Shown here: positions 48,303-64,000 of the stretch, in pieces | How positions within the stretch are numbered: the first letter of the stretch is position 1 | How the letters are laid out: each line of letters opens with the position of its first letter | Assembly: GCA_900095095.1 (NCBI GenBank) | Contig: FMBT01000479.1 | Location: 18,432 to 82,431, forward strand | Origin: Fragilariopsis cylindrus CCMP1102 | Taxonomy: Eukaryota > Bacillariophyta > Bacillariophyceae > Bacillariales > Bacillariaceae | Direction of reading: 5' to 3' | Length of the DNA: 64,000 bases | The notes under the pieces: generated by a model | Told to the model about the DNA's origin: nothing | Database searches by the model: none | Seen by the model: only the letters and a program-made list of their open reading frames with translations | Program-made: the position numbers and the translations under genes

Positions 48303-48948
48303 CTTCACAATACAGTACAGTTAGTCAATTAATTAAGCTTGCAATTTGGGGGAGACGATTTTTTTATTTTTATTTTCGACCCTTTTTCACAACCTTCGAA
48401 CCTAGTACTACTTCAAGTATTTATGGGCAATATTAGTCCTAAACTTCCAGTGCAAGACTCCAGGCAACAGGCAACGGAAGGACAATCACAGTCCGTCCGT
48501 TTACCCCGAACCACGCTTGAAGATTCGCGCCGTTACCAACGAAGCATACTAGTAGGATACGTAGATAAGATTCGTAGGTAGAGTAAGGCAGTACCCTTAA
48601 GGTACAGGATATGACGATCCGGCAAAGCAGAATCGCCAAGAGAGGAAGGATAGGGAAATCAGACGACGGAACGTAAACTCACTCGTTCCATTGTTTCTTC
48701 TGATGTCTGTTTCCATGGGTTGCGATTCCTATCAAGCTAATCTAGCTAACAGGATCTCACCATGGGATTTTTCTTTAACAGTAACAAACAGGTTTCACAA
48801 CCAATTCGTTGACAACATATCAACTGTTTCTGTTCTACCGAACACGAAACAACAACTAACGTCCAAATACAAAGATGACACAAAACTCAATAATCGTAAC
48901 AAATATCTGTATTACCATAATCAGACATGCGATTTACACCATATTCTT

Positions 48949-49918: not shown

Positions 49919-52243
49919 ATGGCTTCCCAAACCAACGTCTTACGTTTAAATTGCATTAACAAGAATTACAACACCTACTCTGTACTACCACTACGAACAC
50001 CAAGAACCAACGTAAAAGATTACCACTTGAATCTTGGAAAAGATGCGTCCTCGAACATCGGTCGCATCCAACCTGACGAAAATCTACGATACGTGTTCAT
50101 CAACGAGGACATGAAGCTCGATGTATTACGCTGCGTCATTCCAGCTGAGGGATATGACATGGCAGCAATTGCTGGAGACGGCATTATGGATACAACAATG
50201 GTCCGCCTTCGCAACGGCAACACAGTTTTCAACAACTTCGTCGCTATCATGAGTAGAGAGATGGTAAACATGGGAGGGTTCCGAACGATCGATGACGTCG
50301 ACGTCGATGAGCTCATCAAACCTGATGGTTCTCTCGTCACTTTAGCGGACATCGGCCTCGATGGTAACGAGGATGATCCGAAGTTGGTAATCTTACCAAT
50401 TGCTATTCCCATTCCTCATGGACATCCTTTACCCCTCGGCCATAAAGTCGATGAAGATCTTCCACCTTCCGAAGTGGAATATCCTCCATATTTCTTAGCC
50501 TGGTTAAAGGCAGTCAAGATCCTCCAAGCCATCAACAAGGGTGTACCAGTAACTGGTTCAGTGGCAGGTAACGACATGCTTTTCGGTCGCGACCAGTTCC
50601 ACGAAACAGTCGCTGATGCTGATGCTGAAGAGAACAACTACGACAGGATCATTCAAGCTACAGGAGACATGATTTCGAAAGATACTTACGTCCTATGTCC
50701 AATGCCAGTTTTGCCATCATCTGATTTCCATCGTCAGCACTTCGACGAGGCGGAAGTTGTTACAAGACGAGCATTGTTCGATGTCGGACAATGCGCGTCT
50801 GCCGAAACAGTCCAACCGAATCAGACTACAGCGACTGACCTCGCCGGATATTCAAAAATTATCGGTGACGCACTCGCGAAGCGTAGCAAATCGGATGATG
50901 CTAAAAAGACAGGTTTCTCCAACAACGTTGAGGAGAAATTGAAACTTTTTGGAGCATCTACCGGGACAAACGGTTTCGGTGAAGAAATTCTTGTGCTAGG
51001 AACAATTTCCGAAGCGTGCAAAAGTATCTTCGCTGATAAAAACAAAACCTCGTCAGCACAATCCTTCCAGAACGCTATGCACTCCGAAGCAGTAGCCATG
51101 ACGGATGAAGGGGGAAACATCGCAGCGGACAACTTGATCTTCAACGAACGCCAATTCAACGCGGTCTTTGTTGTCAAATTGAAAAGTATGCAATTTATGA
51201 GAACAGCTCTTGCACACAACCGTTTGAACTTCGACGCTGAGATCACCATTTTAAATTTTCTTCCTGCCGACGAGGACAATCTAGCATTCCAGAAGATGTT
51301 ACAATCTGACCGAACGGCCCAAGAGGAGGACCAGATGGAATGCGATATTACGAAACATACTAAGCGGACCACCAATCTCTTCATCGACGGTTATCAGGTC
51401 GATCGTTTCCATCTTTACACCTGTATCGCAACATTCATGTGTTTTATCCGTGTTATGTTCGAGAATGGAAAAGAATCGCTAATCTACAAGGGATTTGAGA
51501 ACCTACTCACATACGTCAAGAGTTCCGAAGGGGCCGGTTGGTTAACTTTGAATACTCGTACCTATTCGAACACTATCCATCACTTGGTCTGCGAGTTACA
51601 AATACTGTTGGTAGGTGTCCAGAAATTTACATCCAACAACGATGCCCTTGTCCGAATGGTCAAGAACGATGCTGAAATTCCTGGTGCACATGCCAACCGC
51701 ATCAAGTCAGTATGCGAAAAAATGCACTTTGTTTGGACACAACGATGCGTCGAACCTGTCAGCACTTTCATCAACGCCCCAGAGACGTTTTCCTGGTTTC
51801 CTCTAATATCAGGAAGGAAGTTTACTATCAAACAACAGGACTATTCTGGCACACCGACACACCAGAAAGATGCGAAAAAGGGCAACGCACCTGCTTCGGG
51901 AAAGCCCAAAGGTGTCGCAAAGCACGATAAGCCTGTAAAGGACAATCCTAATCGTGCCGTCAAGACCAACGACGTAATAGAGAAAGAGAAAAAGGGATGG
52001 CTCATGTACACTGGAACCAGCAAGAAATTACCTTCTTGCGGGGAATTCCATGAGGGACAACGCCTATGCAATGGCTGGATCTATGTGGGACGTCACTGCG
52101 GTGCAGATGCATGCAATCGCATCCATGCCAACAGTTTCGACAAACTTACCCCGGAATTCCAAGGAAGAGTCAGAACTTGGGTAAACGATAAGAAAAACAA
52201 AGTCCGATGGGCACCTGGAAGAGAACCCAAGAATAGTGAGTAA
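49919..52243 (+). CDS. Gag-like ORF1 of the DIRS-like element, copy 1
   Basis: 774 residues from the ATG of MASQTNVLRLNCINKNYNTY (the upstream open frame has no ATG). It is the first large ORF, directly ahead of the RT frame, as Gag is in DIRS elements. Most of it has no recognisable domain. Near the C-terminus, after a Lys/Pro-rich linker, comes LPSCGEFHEGQRLCNGWIYV followed by GRHCGADACNRIH, a Cys/His-rich cluster suited to zinc and nucleic-acid binding. The stop TAA lies inside a consensus splice donor (GTAAAC at 52240), so the full product may be a spliced Gag-Pol fusion and this frame the unspliced Gag. Intact here, broken twice in copy 2. Confidence 0.8.
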   Translation: MASQTNVLRLNCINKNYNTYSVLPLRTPRTNVKDYHLNLGKDASSNIGRIQPDENLRYVFINEDMKLDVLRCVIPAEGYDMAAIAGDGIMDTTMVRLRNGNTVFNNFVAIMSREMVNMGGFRTIDDVDVDELIKPDGSLVTLADIGLDGNEDDPKLVILPIAIPIPHGHPLPLGHKVDEDLPPSEVEYPPYFLAWLKAVKILQAINKGVPVTGSVAGNDMLFGRDQFHETVADADAEENNYDRIIQATGDMISKDTYVLCPMPVLPSSDFHRQHFDEAEVVTRRALFDVGQCASAETVQPNQTTATDLAGYSKIIGDALAKRSKSDDAKKTGFSNNVEEKLKLFGASTGTNGFGEEILVLGTISEACKSIFADKNKTSSAQSFQNAMHSEAVAMTDEGGNIAADNLIFNERQFNAVFVVKLKSMQFMRTALAHNRLNFDAEITILNFLPADEDNLAFQKMLQSDRTAQEEDQMECDITKHTKRTTNLFIDGYQVDRFHLYTCIATFMCFIRVMFENGKESLIYKGFENLLTYVKSSEGAGWLTLNTRTYSNTIHHLVCELQILLVGVQKFTSNNDALVRMVKNDAEIPGAHANRIKSVCEKMHFVWTQRCVEPVSTFINAPETFSWFPLISGRKFTIKQQDYSGTPTHQKDAKKGNAPASGKPKGVAKHDKPVKDNPNRAVKTNDVIEKEKKGWLMYTGTSKKLPSCGEFHEGQRLCNGWIYVGRHCGADACNRIHANSFDKLTPEFQGRVRTWVNDKKNKVRWAPGREPKNSE

Positions 52244-52386
52244 ACAAAACCACGTTTCTTATGTCTACTATCCACGCCCACGAATCGAACAAATACACAT
52301 TACATATAAGATTAACTAATTTTCGTTTAATTTACATACTCTTATTCTACATTCCCTTCACTAGCACTTATTTCACCTATCTGCAG
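52240..52386 (+). other. Putative spliceosomal intron joining Gag and Pol
   Basis: 147 nt from GTAAAC to CTGCAG. Features: donor GA|GTAAAC, a branch-like TTAACTAAT about 90 nt before the end, a pyrimidine-rich stretch and a strong acceptor TATCTGCAG. Removing it joins ...KNSE to EPNTSTLD in frame and skips the ORF1 stop. The same bases are present in copy 2 (62296-62442). The cellular genes in this window use the same kinds of splice sites. Confidence 0.55.
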
Positions 52387-52387
52387 A

Positions 52388-54346
52388 GAGCCAAACACCA
52401 GCACGCTCGATGCCTGTTTTCTTGGTGCTTTCTCAAGCAACAAGGTACTCCAACCAATAATCCCTATTGATCCAGTGGTACCACTCGAGTGCGATCCTAG
52501 AAGTCCTCTATTTAAAATAGCGAGCAAAACAATCAATGAACGATCGCCTGCCTTTACCGAAGAATTCCTTCCGAAAGCAAACGTTGAGTCTCATCGTCAT
52601 CCCAACCAAAGTCCGTTCGTGAACGCTGGACCTCCTGCCTCGTTCTCAACCAACGAACTACATAATTGGGCCAAAAGCCTGCCGGAGGGAGTCAAACAAC
52701 CCTTATTCGACATAAATGGTAAGAATACAAAGAGTATGCGACATAAAAATATTTCGTTTACTAGTGAATATCGTTTTCGCCATATTATCCCTTTCTTGTA
52801 TTTAGGCGAATTCCTTGACAAGGACAGCCAGAAGAACCTCGAAGAAGTTTCGTTCCTAGCGAAACAGTTTTCAGAACTACAATCCGAGTACGGTTCGGTC
52901 GATACGGAACCTATTCGCGGATTTGAAAACTACAAAGATTTCCGAGACGAAACAGAACTCAACAAGCATCGCATCCGTCTCCATTCGGCAGCTCTGCTAC
53001 AACATAGCTGCGATGTTGAGAAATTGGTATATTACTCGGTGGCCCACACGTTGGGGCAAACCGGAATGTACCAAAAGATCCTCCAAGACTTAAAGAAAGG
53101 GGTACAACCAGAAATCCTAGCTGAAATCAAGCGTGTCTTCGAGCACGGTTCGCCAAGGCATATTAATGCCACCAATACTGAACAGAACTTGAAAGATTAC
53201 TACCAATACGGCAACCACGAATCCGTTAACGATAATGAAGACGAAGTTGAGAAAGTACTTCTAAAGGATCACCGAAGAGGTAACACTTTACTCGTCGATC
53301 CAAGACTATTCGCGTACATCCCGAACAGTCATCTTTCTCCACAAGGACTTGCAGACCTTTTTAATCTATGGAAAGAGGCCCGCCACATATCCGATTGCTC
53401 ACATCGCGTACACCCGGAATCGATGTCAATCAATGATTGGACCAACAAAAAGAACGAACCTCCAGTCTATTTTGCTGGAAGTTTCGTTCGATTCTGCCAG
53501 TGGATATACAACCTAAGGATTTCATATCCAAAGCGACGTATCCTCCTTGGCGACGACGATATGACGAATGCTTTCAGATTCATCAAAAACAATCCGTCTA
53601 CAGTTGCCATGAATGGCTTCATGGCGAATGGGCATCTCGGGTTCTCTACAGGACAATGCTTCGGCGCCTGTTTTTCTCCACCGAATTTTGACCAAGGAGC
53701 AAAAGGACGGCAGCAACAAGCAAGCTATCTCTGGGAGAAAGAACCAGAACGTACTTTAGCTAGAGCAGTGGACCATACAAGCCAAATGGTCTTTGAAGAA
53801 TGCACCTCAACGGAATCATTCACACAAGCATCAAAGGACGCCCTCAACACGGGCGTGTTTCGGAATAACGGATCGCGGAAACCACCGGAATTTCCTATGC
53901 AAGTAGATGATTGCATGTATGCTGACGTCGAAGAATATTTCAAACTGACTGCAGCATCTAGCATCATGTCTCTTGAGGACGTTTTTGGAGTAGACCATCC
54001 GTGCCAGGAGAAGGCCCTATCACAAAAGAAGTTCAATCCATTGTACAACGAAGAACGACTCACCGTCGGACACGAAGTGCAATCGCGTAGAATGGTAGTC
54101 GTCGTTTCAGTACGACGACGTGCTAAGGTCATAGCATATCTGACCGATGAAGGGTGGACAGTAGTAGGTTCACTTAAATCAATCAGAGAAGCATGCACCG
54201 TCTTGGGTTTAATTGGCTCAGCAGCAGAATATAATCCTTGGGCTCGAGCCCAATTATTCATACTGCAGAACCTCGTAAGAGAGGAACTGGCAATACGATA
54301 CAAAAAAGCGAAAATCGATCAACGACTTAAAAAAGCTAATCGATAA
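52388..54346 (+). CDS. Pol part 1: reverse transcriptase of the DIRS-like element, copy 1
   Basis: Open frame from 52388 (open to 52331) with no ATG near its beginning, consistent with expression by splicing from ORF1. RT motifs: a basic palm lead-in (ISYPKRRILL), motif A GDDDMTNAFRFIK (53552-53590), GHLGFSTGQCFGACFSPPNF for motif B, and motif C MQVDDCMYADVEEYF (catalytic VDD, 53903-53911). GDDD..AF and HVDD/QVDDCMYAD are typical of DIRS-like RTs in diatoms, as I recall them. It ends at TAA 54344-54346, but the next frame overlaps it from 54279 and continues the protein; the A6 run at 54329-54334 is where one base too many would cause this. An 87-nt intron-like segment lies at 52719-52805. 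Confidence 0.8.
   Translation, partial: EPNTSTLDACFLGAFSSNKVLQPIIPIDPVVPLECDPRSPLFKIASKTINERSPAFTEEFLPKANVESHRHPNQSPFVNAGPPASFSTNELHNWAKSLPEGVKQPLFDINGKNTKSMRHKNISFTSEYRFRHIIPFLYLGEFLDKDSQKNLEEVSFLAKQFSELQSEYGSVDTEPIRGFENYKDFRDETELNKHRIRLHSAALLQHSCDVEKLVYYSVAHTLGQTGMYQKILQDLKKGVQPEILAEIKRVFEHGSPRHINATNTEQNLKDYYQYGNHESVNDNEDEVEKVLLKDHRRGNTLLVDPRLFAYIPNSHLSPQGLADLFNLWKEARHISDCSHRVHPESMSINDWTNKKNEPPVYFAGSFVRFCQWIYNLRISYPKRRILLGDDDMTNAFRFIKNNPSTVAMNGFMANGHLGFSTGQCFGACFSPPNFDQGAKGRQQQASYLWEKEPERTLARAVDHTSQMVFEECTSTESFTQASKDALNTGVFRNNGSRKPPEFPMQVDDCMYADVEEYFKLTAASSIMSLEDVFGVDHPCQEKALSQKKFNPLYNEERLTVGHEVQSRRMVVVVSVRRRAKVIAYLTDEGWTVVGSLKSIREACTVLGLIGSAAEYNPWARAQLFILQNLVREELAIRYKKAKIDQRLKKANR
52719..52805 (+). 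other. Second intron-like segment inside the RT frame
   Basis: GTAAGAAT ... TTTCTTGTATTTAG, 87 nt (29 codons, no stop), clearly more AT-rich than its flanks. With it spliced, FDING joins to EFLDKDSQKN via a Gly codon; unspliced, 29 extra residues with several aromatic and basic residues are translated. Present unchanged in copy 2 (62775-62861). Confidence 0.45.
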
Positions 54347-56273
54347 TAAAGTACGTCGATTGCCCACCACCATGAGGCATCGGATGGAAAGCATCGTTGC
54401 AACAGAATATGCTGCCTACATGTACCGTAACGGAATCTATTTTGCACTCAGTGAACCAATAACTAAGTGTGTCATGATTATCATACGCAGTCTAGCGGAT
54501 AAGCGATGGGAATGTCCCATAGGACATATTATTCCTAGAATGCCGACTTGGACAACATCGGGCGATGCATCTGATTTAGCCCTATCCGTATACATCAAGC
54601 AAGCCAAAGTTTTTTGTTTGGTACCATTCGGCAAAGACCTTTTCTCACGAATCAAAGGCCTAGGAAAAGACAAAGAAGTCTTCATTAATAGCCTCGAGTA
54701 CATCGCGCTCCAGCTGGCTCATATCATCATCAACGAAATCTACGACGAAAATCCGTCGGCGTTTCCTCCTTCACCAACGCACTTGGCGTTAGGTGACAAT
54801 ACGCCATCGGTTTCGTGGCTCAACCACCACAGTACAGCTTCTACAATGGGACAAAACCAAATCCGATTGACTGCAGAGTATTCCATCGATGCCAAGGTCA
54901 AATCGTATGCGGAAACATTTGCAAGGAATCAAGAACGAAATGGGAGATACAATTCGCGTCCTCACGAACTCTTTACTCCAAAACTAACAACAATTTATGA
55001 TGTCCCTTTCTCTACACTCGTTAAACAGGTCTGTCAGAAACTTCCAATTCTGCGATCCTATCGGGTTTTCCTCTTGAGTCCAGAGCTCTTCTCAGTCCTG
55101 AGCTCATCATTGTTAAAAAATGTGAGATGGGACGTCCACAAAGCCACAGAGAAACGGACAGCTTGTACCCGTCGATGCCATTTTATCTACTGGTGCACAA
55201 TCCGAGGTGTCTACGACTCAATATTTCCTCTAATCACACTCACCGATACGTCTCTGGTCTACCTCCTAGCCTGTTACACAGCTTTCCTGCAACAGGACAT
55301 GCGATCGGCTTGAAAAGTATCAAATCGGGAACAGTCGATGCATATCTTCTTACTATCAAGAAGTTTTTAAAAAAACTTCGACGAAATAAGCGATCGGGAA
55401 CGCTCGTATGTTTACCGGGACCGCTGTTATTGCACCCCGATCAAAAAGGTCATTGATGAAATGAAGCGGTTTGAAAAACAACCGAACCGAAGAGAGCCTT
55501 GGACATTACAACTTCAAGCCAGATTATACAAAGAATCGCAAGATGAACCTGCTGATAGCCTAACTAAAGTAGGATTCCAGTGGTTTAGTTGCGTTCTCCC
55601 AGCAGGTTGCCGACGCATCGAATGGTGCCAACCGTATGCTAGCCGGGATCCCACCAAAGAACCAGAACTCAACATTCGAAACGAAACGTATGCATTCTGT
55701 GTTGATGATGTCCAGTTCCTTGGAATAGGACAGAGACGCTTTACAACGCCATATGCAATACAAAATCGTGATGAGGTGTACTTCGTGGAACTCACTTTCA
55801 GAGTGCAGAAAAACGGAAAGAACGGAGAAGTAAAGCGCTTTGCGCGTAACTATAGATCACCGTTCATGGATCAAATCACCCATTGGATAACCATTCTCGA
55901 ACGCTTCTCCCGTTTGGTTGGATTAGAAGATAAGACACGCCCTCTTGCAATTTATTATGACTATGCCAAAGGGAAAGTGTTGAACATCTGTTCCGACGAT
56001 TCAAAAAGTATTTTACAGAACATCGTCCGCCTTGAATACGGCATAACCGATCCCAAGGAACTTAGCAAATGGACGAATCATTCTATTCGAGTAGGAATGG
56101 CATGTATTCTCCAATCGCAAGGGAAATCGGGGGACTATATCCAGCGAGCACTAAGATGGTGCAGCGAATCATGGAAATTATACACTCGAAACCTTTGGAG
56201 CGAATCGATTGATCTGTCAAATACAATGTCAAATGAATTGGAAACTGTTACACAACTATTGGATGCATATTAA
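54279..56273 (+). pseudogene. Pol part 2: RNase H and tyrosine recombinase, frame interrupted
   Basis: Frame continues RT (KLIDNKVRRLPTTMRHRMES) into an RNase-H-like domain with LALGDNTPSVSWLNHHS (about 54784-54834), the DNT..SWL signature of DIRS RNase H. It goes out of frame near 55295 (one base short after YTAFLQQ, then GHAIGLKSIKSGTVDAYLLT) and back at the A7 run 55369-55375, after which it runs CYCTPIKKVIDEMKRFEK and QPNRREPWTL to 56273. The recombinase end has HSIRVGMACIL (HxxR, 56079-56090), IQRALRWCSESW and the likely nucleophile in KLYTRN (Tyr codon 56181-56183). The first catalytic Arg is not confidently placed. Two compensating single-base changes mean either a disabled copy or consensus errors. 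Confidence 0.75.
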
Positions 56274-56769: not shown

Positions 56770-57340
56770 ATGAAAAGTCTATTCGGCTTCATGTCTCCTA
56801 AAAAGGCACCATCTCCTCCGATTGTCCCACCTCCTCCGGTTGATCCATCGTACTATAATATGTTGGGTGCTTTACCAGTAGCGCAACAATTCATGGTCCT
56901 TGGACATATCAAGCGATTGTATTCCGGGCTTGCCGCGGCTGGTACAACAACCTACGCCGCTGCTATTGGAAACAATGACTCCGGTAGCAACCGCACAAAC
57001 GAGCATCGTCGGGGTCACACCTGAATCGGATCGTAACGTAAGACGTCGACTCGACTTTGCTCCACCCAACGAAGCGGCACTCGACGCAATGTTGTCGGAA
57101 AAGGACGAATATGGAATCCACCACATTTTCGGCAATGCGCTTATCAACCACTATCTAAAGAAGTATTCTTCACCCACGATCGAGGTCGTCGTGAAGGAAT
57201 TGAGTACCGGACCGCACCCGTATTACAAATTCAACGCAATGCAGCTGCTATACACAGTATTCCAGATGACGAAGGCTACGGACGCTGTCATCAGTAGTGT
57301 CAACACACAATTCGCTAACCATATTCCGGTAACGCGGTGA
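56770..57340 (+). pseudogene. Tail accessory ORF A of the element
   Basis: An ATG frame starts MKSLFGFMSPKKAPSPPIVP, then PPPVDPSYYNMLGALPVAQQ, to about 56930; the continuation with better composition is in the next frame (TSIVGVTPESDRNVRRRLDF, then NALINHYLKKYSSPTIEVVV) to 57340. One single-base change would join them into a product of about 190 residues: Pro-rich N-terminus, basic middle, helical C-terminus. Unrecognised. Lies after the recombinase where DIRS elements normally have only terminal repeats. Confidence 0.4.
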
Positions 57341-57408: not shown

Positions 57409-57775
57409 ATGACTTACGAAGCCCTATTGTCAGTTGAACACAAAACCGATCATCATCGAGTATTGCGCGACAAACACAAATTTGAAGATGAGGCTGGCCC
57501 CCATTATTGGCCCATCTTCTGCATTTTATTCAGAAAGGAACGACTCCTTCTCCCTTTCAACGATACCAGTGCCGGTCTTATTCTTGGTTCCCAATTCTTG
57601 GAGCAAGATTGGGATCGAAAAGGTTTCAAAAACTATGTAAAGACTTGCCTGCACAACAAGATTGTCCTGTTGTTGACAATAAAGCTAGAAAGACCAATCA
57701 AAGCGTTATCCGCGAATTGAAATACCTCAAGGCGTGGACTATCGCTGCCAAAACTGGGACTAGGGTTGGTTAAAC
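57409..57775 (+). pseudogene. Tail accessory ORF B of the element
   Basis: MTYEALLSVEHKTDHHRVLR, then GPHYWPIFCILFRKERLLLP, to FKNYVK near 57640, after which the plausible continuation (LPAQQDCPVVDNKARKTNQS, VIRELKYLKAWTIAAKTGTR) is in another frame; one missing G at an AAG-GAC site would join them. About 121 residues if joined. Unrecognised. Confidence 0.4.
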
Positions 57776-57796
57776 ATACAATCCACCAATACATTT

Positions 57797-57956
57797 GTGA
57801 GCGCTGATCCTTCGACAGACTCACTATACAATACATTTCATACAATCCGTGAGCCGATCCTTCGACAGACTCACTATACATTACATTACATACGATCCGT
57901 GAGCACTGATCCTCGACAGACTCACTATACAATAACAATACATACATACCGTGAGC
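57797..57956. repeat. ~52-bp minisatellite in element tail
   Basis: Three units starting GTGAGC at 57797, 57849 and 57899 (periods 52 and 50), with a fourth start at 57951. Core GATCCTTCGACAGACTCACT in the first two units; the third lacks one T. Confidence 0.9.
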
Positions 57957-57985
57957 GTACATACAAATACGTCCCACTATACTAC

Positions 57986-58061
57986 AACTGACATCATCTA
58001 TATCCGATCATGCCAAATAACATAACTGGCATCATCTATACCCGATTATGCCAAATAACAT
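57986..58061. repeat. 38-bp tandem duplication in element tail
   Basis: AACTGRCATCATCTATAYCC (57986 and 58024), each unit ending ATGCCAAATAACAT; 3-4 differences between units. Confidence 0.9.
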
Positions 58062-58091
58062 ACAACAAAGTATAATATTAACTATATAAAA

Positions 58092-58140
58092 TTTCAAAAA
58101 AAAAAAAAAAAAAAACTTTCTTTTCTTTTCTTTTTTATCC
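58092..58140. repeat. Poly-A and pyrimidine tract in element tail
   Basis: About 21 A residues followed by CTTTCTTTTCTTTTCTTTTTT. Could be a relic of a polyadenylated RNA end or a simple repeat. Confidence 0.8.
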
Positions 58141-59005
58141 GGCTGGCCTGCCACTATATTTACATGGCGGCTACGAACTCACCGATTACTGGTACAAACA
58201 CCATCAACCGACTCATTATAGTCGCAGCCCATTAGTGGCGGTGTTAGGAGCATCGCGCTTCCTGCAACGATCGCAATTTCGGGATCCCCAAACCCGAATA
58301 CCGAAATGCAATCTCTACAGTAATCACTCACTATCTCTCTAGCAGCTTAGTTAACCTGCCAATCACTCCTATGTACTAAACATAGTATTCATAGGACCAT
58401 AGGTAGATCACATAGCTAGAAATAGTGCCTCCAGCACATGCCATGCATTCTGTAGGAGCAGACCAGCCGAGACGGCGCACGTGAATTGGGCGAAGTAGAT
58501 TCTCCAGTGCAAGACTCCAGGCAACAGGCAACGGAAGGACAATCACAGTCCGTCCGTTTACCCCGAACCACGCTTGAAGATTCGCGCCGTTACCAACGAA
58601 GCATACTAGTAGGATACGTAGATAAGATTCGTAGGTAGAGTAAGGCAGTACCCTTAAGGTACAGGATATGACGATCCGGCAAAGCAGAATCGCCAAGAGA
58701 GGAAGGATAGGGAAATCAGACGACGGAACGTAAACTCACTCGTTCCATTGTTTCTTCTGATGTCTGTTTCCATGGGTTGCGATTCCTATCAAGCTAATCT
58801 AGCTAACAGGATCTCACCATGGGATTTTTCTTTAACAGTAACAAACAGGTTTCACAACCAATTCGTTGACAACATATCAACTGTTTCTGTTCTACCGAAC
58901 ACGAAACAACAACTAACGTCCAAATACAAAGATGACACAAAACTCAATAATCGTAACAAATATCTGTATTACCATAATCAGACATGCGATTTACACCATA
59001 TTCTT

Positions 59006-59075
59006 GTCTCACGACTACCGTCTCACGACACCCTGTCTCACGACTACCGTCTCACGACACCCTGTCTCACGACGT
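59006..59075. repeat. 29-bp tandem repeat in leader of copy 2
   Basis: Same alternating TCTCACGAC units as at 48949-49018. Confidence 0.88.
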
Positions 59076-59976
59076 TTCGCTTAGCGATTCACAAAACCAA
59101 ATCTGAGGACTCCTTACAAGGATCAATCTTCACCATCGGCAATCGACAGTTTTTCATTAGCGAAACTAATCCACGAATCGTTTATTAGCAAAACTAATTC
59201 ACGAATCCTCTGTGGCGATTCGTGACTGATGCTTCGACTGCGAACCTTGACTCAACTTTCAAAAATTACTTAACGAACAGTCCAACATTGGCTTTCAGGG
59301 GAGTACATGTTCTCCTTTCCGAGTTGAAGTGACTAGTCGAGGCAATTGGAACCAAGCACAAACAAATGGAATGCTTAGGTACATAGTATTCGTGAAAGTC
59401 ACATTCACTAAGTGTAACAATATTCACCAAACATATAAGATGAACCACATGTCACCACGACTACTATTCCGATACAAAATTCGACAAAAGTGACTTTATT
59501 CATAATTGCCGAATCATATATATATATAATAATCAAACATATATGAGGATTCCTTCACAACCATGATTACATCCTTAAACAACAACTCGATGATCGATCG
59601 CGCTCTTCAAACGAAGACTGCATCGGACAATGTTCGCGATCGTAGAAGAACCGATGCTGATACAACTGACCTAATGCCTCTTTCAAAGACTACATTCAGC
59701 TATGTACAAATCGCAGCAATCAAAACCGATAGTAAATATCGATGTCTATGTCGACTCCGACGTCGACTCCGACGTCAATGTCGATGTCTAACCAATATAT
59801 ACTGATAGATATATGGATAAACAACGATTAACTGCACAAGAACCGTCTTTTCACAGGAGAAAACAACGATTCATTACCTACGAATCGTCTCTTCACAAAA
59901 CCACAACGTAACACAATAATCAGATCAGGTGCTCACAATACGCTTGACGAGAACTTACAAACGCAAATCAAACATC

Positions 59977-62299
59977 ATGGCTTCCCAAACCAACGTCTTA
60001 CGTTTAAATTGCATTAACAAGAATTACAACACCTACTCTGTACTACCACTACGAACACCAAGAACCAACGTAAAAGATTACCACTTGAATCTTGGAAAAG
60101 ATGCGTCCTCGAACATCGGTCGCATCCAACCTGACGAAAATCTACGATACGTGTTCATCAACGAGGACATGAAGCTCGATGTATTACGCTGCGTCATTCC
60201 AGCTGAGGGATATGACATGGCAGCAATTGCTGGAGACGGCATTATGGATACAACAATGGTCCGCCTTCGCAACGGCAACACAGTTTTCAACAACTTCGTC
60301 GCTATCATGAGTAGAGAGATGGTAAACATGGGAGGGTTCCGAACGATCGATGACGTCGACGTCGATGAGCTCATCAAACCTGATGGTTCTCTCGTCACTT
60401 TAGCGGACATCGGCCTCGATGGTAACGAGGATGATCCGAAGTTGGTAATCTTACCAATTGCTATTCCCATTCCTCATGGACATCCTTTACCCCTCGGCCA
60501 TAAAGTCGATGAAGATCTTCCACCTTCCGAAGTGGAATATCCCCATATTTCTTAGCCTGGTTAAAGGCAGTCAAGATCCTCCAAGCCATCAACAAGGGTG
60601 TACCAGTAACTGGTTCAGTGGCAGGTAACGACATGCTTTTCGGTCGCGACCAGTTCCACGAAACAGTCGCTGATGCTGATGCTGAAGAGAACAACTACGA
60701 CAGGATCATTCAAGCTACAGGAGACATGATTTCGAAAGATACTTACGTCCTATGTCCAATGCCAGTTTTGCCATCATCTGATTTCCATCGTCAGCACTTC
60801 GACGAGGCGGAAGTTGTTACAAGACGAGCATTGTTCGATGTCGGACAATGCGCGTCTGCCGAAACAGTCCAACCGAATCAGACTACAGCGACTGACCTCG
60901 CCGGATATTCAAAAATTATCGGTGACGCACTCGCGAAGCGTAGCAAATCGGATGATGCTAAAAAGACAGGTTTCTCCAACAACGTTGAGGAGAAATTGAA
61001 ACTTTTTGGAGCATCTACCGGGACAAACGGTTTCGGTGAAGAAATTCTTGTGCTAGGAACAATTTCCGAAGCGTGCAAAAGTATCTTCGCTGATAAAAAC
61101 AAAACCTCGTCAGCACAATGCTTCCAGAACGCTATGCACTCCGAAGCAGTAGCCATGACGGATGAAGGGGGAAACATCGCAGCGGACAACTTGATCTTCA
61201 ACGAACGCCAATTCAACGCGGTCTTTGTTGTCAAATTGAAAAGTATGCAATTTATGAGAACAGCCCTTGCACACAACCGTTTGACTTCGACGCTGAGATC
61301 ACCATTTTAAATTTTCTTCCTGCCGACGAGGACAATCTAGCATTCCAGAAGATGTTACAATCTGACCGAACGGCCCAAGAGGAGGATCAGATGGAATGCG
61401 ATATTACGAAACATACTAAGCGGACCACCAATCTCTTCATCGACGGTTATCAGGTCGATCGTTTCCATCTTTACACCTGTATCGCAACATTCATGTGTTT
61501 TATCCGTGTTATGTTCGAGAATGGAAAAGAATCGCTAATCTACAAGGGATTTGAGAACCTACTCACATACGTCAAGAGTTCCGAAGGGGCCGGTTGGTTA
61601 ACTTTGAATACTCGTACCTATTCGAACACTATCCATCACTTGGTCTGCGAGTTACAAATACTGTTGGTAGGTGTCCAGAAATTTACATCCAACAACGATG
61701 CCCTTGTCCGAATGGTCAAGAACGATGCTGAAATTCCTGGTGCACATGCCAACCGCATCAAGTCAGTATGCGAAAAAATGCACTTTGTTTGGACACAACG
61801 ATGCGTCGAACCTGTCAGCACTTTCATCAACGCCCCAGAGACGTTTTCCTGGTTTCCTCTAATATCAGGAAGGAAGTTTACTATCAAACAACAGGACTAT
61901 TCTGGCACACCGACACACCAGAAAGATGCGAAAAAGGGCGACGCACCTGCTTCGGGAAAGCCCAAAGGTGTCGCAAAGCACGATAAGCCTGTAAAGGACA
62001 ATCCTAATCGTGCCGTCAAGACCAACGAGGTAATAGAGAAAGAGAAAAAGGGATGGCTCATGTACACTGGAACCAGCAAGAAATTACCTTCTTGCGGGGA
62101 ATTCCATGAGGGAAAACGCCTATGCAATGGCTGGATCTATGTGGGACGTCACTGCGGTGCAGATGCATGCAATCGCATCCATGCCAACAGTTTCGACAAA
62201 CTTACCCCGGAATTCCAAGGAAGAGTCAGAACTTGGGTAAACGATAAGAAAAACAAAGTCCGATGGGCACCTGGAAGAGAACCCAAGAATAGTGAGTAA
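59977..62299 (+). pseudogene. Gag-like ORF1 of copy 2, frame broken twice
   Basis: Same ATG (MASQTNVLRL) as copy 1. One T is missing at about 60542 (CCCC for CCTCC), giving a stop at 60553-60555, and one A is missing at about 61284 (TTGACTTC for TTGAACTTC). The frame then runs to the same TAA. Replacement differences from copy 1 are few (S/C, N/D, D/E, Q/K). Confidence 0.85.
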
Positions 62300-62443
62300 A
62301 CAAAACCACGTTTCTTATGTCTACTATCCACGCCCACGAATCGAACAAATACACATTACATATAAGATTAACTAATTTTCGTTTAATTTACATACTCTTA
62401 TTCTACATTCCCTTCACTAGCACTTATTTCACCTATCTGCAGA

Positions 62444-64000
62444 GAGCCAAACACCAGCACGCTCGATGCCTGTTTTCTTGGTGCTTTCTCAAGCAACAAG
62501 GTACTCCAACCAATAATCCCTATTGATCCAGTGGTACCACTCGAGTGCGATCCTAGTAGTCCTCTATTTAAAATAGCGAGCAAAACAATCAATGAACGAT
62601 CGCCTGCCTTTACCGAAGAATTCCTTCCAAAAGCAAACGTTGAGTCTCATCGTCATCCCAACCAAAGTCCGTTCGTGAACGCTGGACCTCCTGCCTCGTT
62701 CTCAACCAACGAACTACATAATTGGGCCAAAAGCCTGCCGGAGGGAGTCAAACAACCCTTATTCGACATAAATGGTAAGAATACAAAGAGTATGCGACAT
62801 AAAAATATTTCGTTTACTAGTGAATATCGTTTTCGCCATATTATCCCTTTCTTGTATTTAGGCGAATTCCTTGACAAGGAAAGCCAGAAGAACCTCGAAG
62901 AAGTTTCGTTCCTAGCGAAACAGTTTTCAGAACTACAATCCGAGTACGGTTCGGTCGATACGGAACCTATTCGCGGATTTGAAAACTACAAAGATTTCCG
63001 AGACGAAACAGAACTCAACAAGCATCGCATCCGTCTCCATTCGGCAGCTCTGCTACAACATAGCTGCGATGTTGAGAAATTGGTATATTACTCGGTGGCC
63101 CACACGTTGGGGCAAACCGGAATGTACCAAAAATCCTCCAAGACTTAAAGAAAGGGGTACAACCAGAAATCCTAGCCGAAATCAAGCGTGTCTTCGAGCA
63201 CGGTTCGCCAAGGCATATTAATGCCACCAATACTGAACAGAACTTGAAAGATTACTACCAATACGGCAACCACGAATCCGTTAACGATAATGAAGACGAA
63301 GTTGAGAAAGTACTTCTAAAGGATCACCGAAGAGGTAACACTTTACTCGTCGATCCAAGACTATTCGCGTACATCCCGAACAGTCATCTTTCTCCACAAG
63401 GACTTGCAGACCTTTTTAATCTATGGAAAGAGGCCCGCCACATATCCGATTGCTCACATCGCGTACACCCGGAATCGATGTCAATCAATGATTGGACCAA
63501 CAAAAAGAACGAACCTCCAGTCTATTTTGCTGGAAGTTTCGTTCGATTCTGCCAGTGGATATACAACCTAAGGATTTCATATCCAAAGCGACGTATCCTC
63601 CTTGGCGACGACGATATGACGAATGCTTTCAGATTCATCAAAAACAATCCGTCTACAGTTGCCATGAATGGCTTCATGGCGAATGGGCATCTCGGGTTCT
63701 CTACAGGACAATGCTTCGGCGCCTGTTTTTCTCCACCGAATTTTGACCAAGGAGCAAAAGGACGGCAGCAACAAGCAAGCTATCTCTGGGAGAAAGAACC
63801 AGAACGTACTTTAGCTAGAGCAGTGGACCATACAAGCCGAATGGTCTTTGAAGAATGCACCTCGACGGAATCATTCACACAAGCATCAAAGGACGCCCTC
63901 AACACGGGCGTGTTTCGGAATAACGGATCGCGGAAACCACCGGAATTTCCTATGCAAGTAGATGATTGCATGTATGCTGACGTCGAAGAATATTTCAAAC
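62444..64000 (+). pseudogene. Pol (RT) of copy 2, frame broken, cut by window end
   Basis: Corresponds to the RT frame of copy 1. One G is missing at about 63132 (CCAAAAATCC for CCAAAAGATCC), ending the frame at 63146-63148; the other frame then carries motif A and motif C unchanged up to the window edge. Confidence 0.85.

Follow-up and report, generated by a model that had tools for sequence, protein, structure and literature searches.

The Gag and Pol reading frames of a retrotransposon in Fragilariopsis cylindrus CCMP1102, whose repeats point to the Ngaro type, are separated by a stop-containing spacer, and its removal by the spliceosome, yielding Gag-Pol, is the best of the explanations that we considered. 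Judged from sequence, we give it an even chance. The element lies in a stretch of 64,000 nucleotides (the window). An earlier reading, made from the sequence alone, had proposed that splicing fuses Gag and Pol. That proposal stands as the best explanation considered, given the layout of the frames, the missing ATG of Pol and the conserved sites, but the donor named in it is probably the wrong one.

According to this model, unspliced RNA would be translated into Gag, up to a stop codon lying across the 5' splice site. Part of the transcripts would lose the AT-rich spacer, with its four in-frame stops, to the host spliceosome, so that Gag would be read into RT-RNase H. The likeliest sites would be 52236 and 52364 (129 nt), followed by the pairs 52240-52386 (147 nt) and 52236-52388 (153 nt). 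The template for copying would be unspliced RNA, and the intron would thereby be kept. We infer splicing itself, its exact sites, the ratio of the proteins and the choice of the RNA that is copied.

Reading frames and the border between Gag and Pol

Gag and Pol lie in the same register (position = 2 mod 3). Between them are four in-frame stops, at 52241 (the Gag stop TAA, 52241-52243), 52307, 52313 and 52328, which neither simple read-through nor a single frameshift could get past. The absence of an early ATG from the Pol frame, which had been noticed before, was borne out, the earliest in-frame ATG being at 52736 with none before residue 136. Pol residues 56-135, upstream of this ATG, are 51-56% identical to the relatives P0008, P0009, P0010 and P0012 (67-78 aligned residues), and only 13-36% identical to six more distant relatives (P0013, P0014, P0016-P0019). 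Since this stretch is conserved in the four closer proteins, it is coding. The match to P0012 runs gap-free back to about 52391, near the acceptors. Against the model, the relatives P0009 and P0010 each carry a Met close to where Pol begins. The spacer (52236-52388) has a GC content of 0.34, compared with 0.46 and 0.45 in the flanking coding DNA. All features are collected in the table.

Table. Positions in the window of the element's repeats, reading frames and candidate splice signals
Feature	Positions	Strand	Evidence or remark
A1 (331 bp), half of the split direct repeats at the left terminus	48446..48776	+	100% over 331 bp vs A2 of contig C684
Gag-like ORF, 774 aa when started at its first ATG	49919..52243	+	relatives P0021-P0025 at 44-53% identity
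Preferred donor GTGAGT, overlapping Gag end	52236..52241	+	6.4 bits, top 1.9% of + strand window GTs
Putative intron, preferred version, 129 nt	52236..52364	+	rivals 52236-52388 (153 nt), 52240-52386 (147 nt)
Rival donor GTAAAC	52240..52245	+	-0.6 bits, lower than all 14 host donors; altered in C265 copy
Branch-like TTAACTAAT	52312..52320	+	seen in sequence, without host branch-site model; next AG ends at 52364
Open frame of Pol with N-terminal region and RT; first ATG 52736	52331..54346	+	ORF list; RT-RNase H fold of close relative P0006
Possible acceptor AG in CACTAG; pairs in frame with 52236	52363..52364	+	2.2 bits, within host leave-one-out range
AG in CTGCAG, the strongest acceptor nearby; pairs in frame only with 52240	52385..52386	+	9.3 bits, top 0.4% of AGs
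Possible acceptor AG in GCAGAG; pairs in frame with 52236	52387..52388	+	-3.9 bits
Remainder of RT-RNase H, shifted frame in window copy	54279..55313	+	single 919-aa frame in P0006 and P0007
Tyrosine-recombinase-like (YR) ORF, HSIRVG...RW...Y	55371..56273	+	open frame of 416 aa in 5 other copies
B1, internal half of split direct repeats, 253 bp	58250..58502	+	99.6% identical to B2 of contig C684
A2	58503..58833	+	C684: then 20 nt and B2; window: then further element copy

The domains of Pol were assigned by structure. A structure model of the close relative P0006 has an RNase H and RT-like fold, and both domains are present; its structure alignment (VIA-align) covers little outside model residues 217-836, so that the N-terminal part is barely covered. 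The Pfam models for RT, RNase H and integrase gave no match to the element. For the YR ORF neither Pfam nor PHROGs returned a match, and a single-sequence model (pLDDT 42) was too poor for a structure search. The HSIR...RW...Y of P0004 (HxxR and the catalytic Tyr) is what we take to be the tyrosine-recombinase motif.

At the other end of Pol, RT-RNase H terminates in YFL or CFL in 7 of 14 aligned relatives, with YR in an overlapping frame (window 55095-55313). Some relatives end in SG[E/K]S..YFL, which is donor-like; an intron at this border was considered and set aside, the YR frame overlapping there and the ORFs being read as an overlap. In the C342 copy, small differences place RT-RNase H and YR in one ORF of 1,314 aa. 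Downstream of YR, a further open frame of 152 aa (window 56882-57340) has no Pfam match.

A 1,314-aa Pol query, with proteins up to about 2,300 aa admitted, found 15 relatives, none longer than 1,009 aa and none a Gag-Pol fusion. This fits an unlikely alternative in which nothing is spliced and Pol is reached by reinitiation at ATG 52261 (frame 1) with a +1 shift into Pol within 52331-52467, or by a non-AUG start. The ATG lies 18 nt past the Gag stop, and frame 1 is open to 52468, crosses the spacer and overlaps Pol; nevertheless, reinitiation would require two unusual events. No DNA of the relatives was confirmed in the viral and genome contigs that we scanned with Pol and Gag alignments.

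Candidate splice sites and their conservation

In the host genome, which is rich in light-harvesting genes, introns were collected from chaperonin, Ras and proteasome family searches, for which 19 stretches were fetched. Six of these were dropped: three (L072, L073 and L076) were interpreted as in-frame insertions, L065 was truncated, and L062 and L069 resembled L061 and L074. In the other 13 stretches, 14 introns were fixed by uninterrupted joined translation across the gaps between adjacent exons. They measure 158-289 nt, have a GC content of 0.23-0.38 and all carry G at +5. Their donors are GTACGT (four introns), GTGAGT (three), GTAAGT (three) and four others found once each. With splice-site matrices built from these 14 introns only, leave-one-out scores ranged from 2.9 to 11.7 bits for host donors and from -10.2 to 8.5 bits for host acceptors.

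Three in-frame pairs of sites at the Gag-Pol border scored above -10: 52236-52364 (8.6 bits), 52240-52386 (8.6 bits) and 52236-52388 (2.5 bits). The two best single sites, 52236 and 52386, would give an out-of-frame product. The 20 nt before the acceptor at 52364 are 80% pyrimidine. The GC content of the spacer falls within the host intron range. None of the candidate introns (129, 147 and 153 nt) reaches the length of the shortest host intron sampled, a point against splicing. The best in-frame pair score was reached by 6.3% of 20,000 random anchors of the same geometry, drawn from both strands of the window's first 48,000 bases. The splice signals alone thus exceed chance weakly, and the case rests on comparative evidence. 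Splice-like sites do arise by chance in this element, as illustrated by a second GT-AG pair at 52719-52805 (GTAAGA...TTTAG, 87 nt, in frame, donor 6.2 bits), which we rejected as an intron, the residues that it encodes being conserved coding sequence in close relatives.

The sequence-only reading had placed the intron exactly at 52240-52386, with a donor GTAAAC overlapping the Gag stop, an acceptor CTGCAG and a branch-like TTAACTAAT. All three elements are present (at 52240, ending at 52386 and at 52312, respectively), and excision of the 147 nt keeps Gag and Pol in frame. However, this is one of three such pairs, and its donor is probably misplaced: the overlapping GTGAGT at 52236 scores 6.4 bits versus -0.6, and GTAAAC has A at +5, where each of the 14 host introns has G, and scores under all host donors. 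In total score the pair equals the preferred one, its acceptor is excellent, and the GAG-TAA of its donor would encode the terminal Glu of Gag and the stop. Against it also stand the altered hexamer in the C265 copy and the relative P0012, whose protein has Leu opposite the AG of 52386, and no Leu codon begins with AG. We regard this exact placement as quite improbable, and its share is contained in the even chance given to splicing as a whole. P0012 permits an AG at 52388; at 52364 it does so only if the alignment is extended upstream gap-free, which the aligner did not do.

We then compared copies of the border. A 601-bp query (52100-52700) gave 16 matches, 15 of which span the spacer while one stops short of it, and identity over the query was 96-100%. 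The spacer was present in all 15 spanning matches. That no intron-less genomic copy appeared fits the copying of unspliced RNA, and it equally fits an absence of splicing. For the alignment, 12 of the 15 were used, leaving out C342, C265 and C84 as further copies of a contig-end piece represented by C773b. GTGAGTAA, CACTAG and CTGCAGAGAG were kept in 12/12 aligned copies and GTAAAC in 11/12, the change being in the C265 copy.

Eleven copies, not counting the one on C53, were inspected between the acceptor and the first ATG. Five are intact there, and none of the five has an earlier in-frame ATG; the other six contain indels and in-frame stops. These six, the frameshift within Pol of the window copy and a signal strength near chance would suit a decayed or non-functional border, in a family that makes no Pol now and whose splice-like sites are accidental. 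We nonetheless consider decay highly unlikely, given the five intact copies and the 96-100% identity, by which the copies are recent.

The end of Gag was compared with five relatives, three of which reach the C-terminus (46-51% identity). All three end at the final column of the window Gag with a final Glu (PKSRE, PKNRE and PKNRE versus PKNSE in the window); the other two stop or diverge earlier. The relatives in the database presumably carry a stop right after the shared last residue. Such a common end would be explicable by a stop fixed under an overlapping donor (GTGAGTAA or GAG-TAA), and ordinary conservation could explain it as well.

The shared end residue also bears on the possibility that Pol is translated from a separate spliced mRNA with a 5' exon further upstream and an acceptor at 52386 or 52364, leaving Gag and Pol unfused. 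A separately spliced Pol mRNA is the pattern of foamy viruses. With 9.3 bits, 52386 belongs to the strongest acceptors in the element (54268 reaches 11.0), and an upstream donor at 51611 (9.5 bits) is stronger than 52236, but 51611 lies inside conserved Gag. Moreover, the common end residue and a donor near the Gag end in the distant C90 family (see below) argue for a donor at the end of Gag, and we hold a separate Pol mRNA to be rather improbable.

Ends and type of the element

The repeats of the element have the order A1-ORFs-B1A2-B2. The left end, A1, coincides in three loci (the window, C342 and C84), whose left flanks differ. The right end was resolved on C684, where A2 (331 bp) is followed by 20 nt, B2 (253 bp) and flank. 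The junction was searched with 300 bp around 58502/58503 (40 of 56 candidates scored; 43 matches including weaker and partial ones), and the full-length B1A2 junction was found in 11 places. Its upstream half (B) recurs alone 604 bp downstream on six contigs (C684, C329, C53, C743, C99, C641), and its downstream half (A) occurs alone at the left end on nine (C773, C743, C641, C342, C265, C84, C53, C21, C669). Elements with both ends, about 10.7 kb long, are found on C743 and C641.

The ends of the element are therefore direct repeats, and this split arrangement points to the Ngaro type rather than the DIRS1 type. Ngaro and PAT type both fit the repeats, PAT elements having split direct repeats too in the part of PMC4157794 used here. 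DIRS1-like elements are characterized by inverted terminal repeats, internal complementary regions and a methyltransferase domain, as described in the part of PMC3266345 drawn upon. Self-comparison of the 10,057-bp unit detected neither such terminal repeats nor complementary regions, only short palindromes, and Pfam found no methyltransferase domain in the element, although Pfam is also blind to its RT and YR. Lack of this domain sets Ngaro elements apart from PAT and DIRS1. The earlier assignment as DIRS-like was correct with regard to the order of YR retrotransposons, the window element sharing Gag, RT-RNase H and a YR-like ORF with DIRS1-like elements; it was wrong for DIRS1, since the window element has split direct repeats instead of inverted ones.

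Several further arrangements were observed. C421, C411 and C414 contain A-B arrangements a few hundred bases long that resemble solo AB repeats or non-autonomous derivatives. Upstream of B1, a unit of about 60 bp containing CGACAGACTCACTATACA occurs in several near-tandem copies (window 57795-57960, by eye). On C53 (58707-79436), a gap of about 20.7 kb splits one element copy, and the same 16 bp of the element are matched at either side of it, as if a large mobile element had inserted with target-site duplication; none of the 45 integrase-core (rve) matches listed is located on C53.

After 58503 the window appears to contain a second copy of the element, which probably results from the assembler joining one repeat piece to the ends of four contigs. 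C773, C342, C84 and C265 all break off at one position of the element, where their match scores are identical, and the C84 end piece is 100% identical to window 57770-64000. The "second copy" is thus likely a collapsed repeat, an assembly effect. A tandem array of two copies was dropped in favour of split direct repeats and an assembler-shared piece, though a genuine tandem insertion may still exist. When both copies were said to keep the splice layout, two probably non-independent sequences were compared; the spacer itself is present in every spanning match.

Other families of the genome and known systems

A second family, represented by C90, is distant from the window element (Pol 21%, YR 26-27% identical). 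Its Gag and Pol lie in different frames, 155 nt apart. GTACGT, the donor of 4/14 host introns, is located 17 nt before the Gag stop of C90 and at the same place in all four junctions seen (C90, C32, C269, C573); L078, one of five C90-type stretches, showed no junction. In C90, in-frame acceptors would give introns of 188 or 200 nt, and the best pair was matched by 5.9% of random anchors in the C90 geometry.

Other borders are built differently. In C184 and C762, and in C771, one stop codon alone separates the Gag-like and Pol frames, which lie in the same register. In C184 and C771 this stop is TGA-CGA, a candidate read-through signal. GTACGT is also present close to where Gag ends in C184 and C762, within coding sequence where no intron is needed, which indicates that such hexamers can be accidental. 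On C395, C172 and C350, the stretches examined for Gag or Pol relics contained no Gag or Pol match.

Two ways of bridging the Gag-Pol border thus seem to exist, in support of a need for Gag-Pol fusion. The single-stop borders of C184, C762 and C771 lend some support to the proposal that splicing replaces a frameshift or stop read-through. At somewhat less than even chances, at least two distant tyrosine-recombinase families may keep a spliceosomal intron at the Gag-Pol border, with a donor that overlaps the Gag stop or lies shortly before it, while others use a single leaky stop; these would be interchangeable ways to set the ratio of Gag to Gag-Pol in a single retroelement order and a single genome. 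If the model is true, an intron would be kept in the copied RNA yet removed in the Pol message, and nuclear export and splicing control would set the activity of the element.

Splicing separates the output of Gag and Pol in copia (Gag) and foamy virus (Pol) without fusing Gag to Pol, whereas fusion is proposed for the window element. Our search of the open literature, with the original DIRS and Ngaro descriptions lying outside it, returned no report of a gag-pol intron in a Ngaro-type element in the parts of the papers covered. The word "intron" is absent from the main text of PMC3266345, PMC3783388, PMC2685390, PMC9210276 and PMC4157794, and the parts consulted of PMC8547959, PMC5633606, PMC3212892, PMC5890265 and PMC5718144 describe no gag-pol intron of a YR retrotransposon. 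PMC12477816, consulted on DIRS, Ngaro and PAT, likewise gave no such report.

Ngaro elements, for example in Cafeteria burkhardae, have the structure A1-[ORFs]-B1A2B2 with a Gag-like ORF1, an RT-RNase H ORF2 and a YR ORF3, and they leave solo AB repeats (PMC8547959, in part). The window element is like them in its split direct repeats and its Gag-like, RT-RNase H and YR-like ORFs. It differs in length (about 10.7 kb versus about 6 kb), in escaping the Pfam models for RT, RNase H and integrase, and in its candidate gag-pol intron, which the same part of PMC8547959 does not mention for Ngaro.

The closest known case is Ogre of plants, for which the parts of PMC6317226 used here give a mechanism the same in kind as the one proposed, namely Gag-Pol by splicing; Bianca is described there as another element with separated ORFs. 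Ogre is an LTR element with an integrase and a spacer averaging 274 bp (PMC6317226, same parts), while the window holds a tyrosine-recombinase element with a candidate spacer of about 129-153 nt. If confirmed, Ogre-like splicing by an element of the Ngaro type whose host genome also contains single-stop families would be new, and the presence of both border types in the same host would allow their direct comparison.
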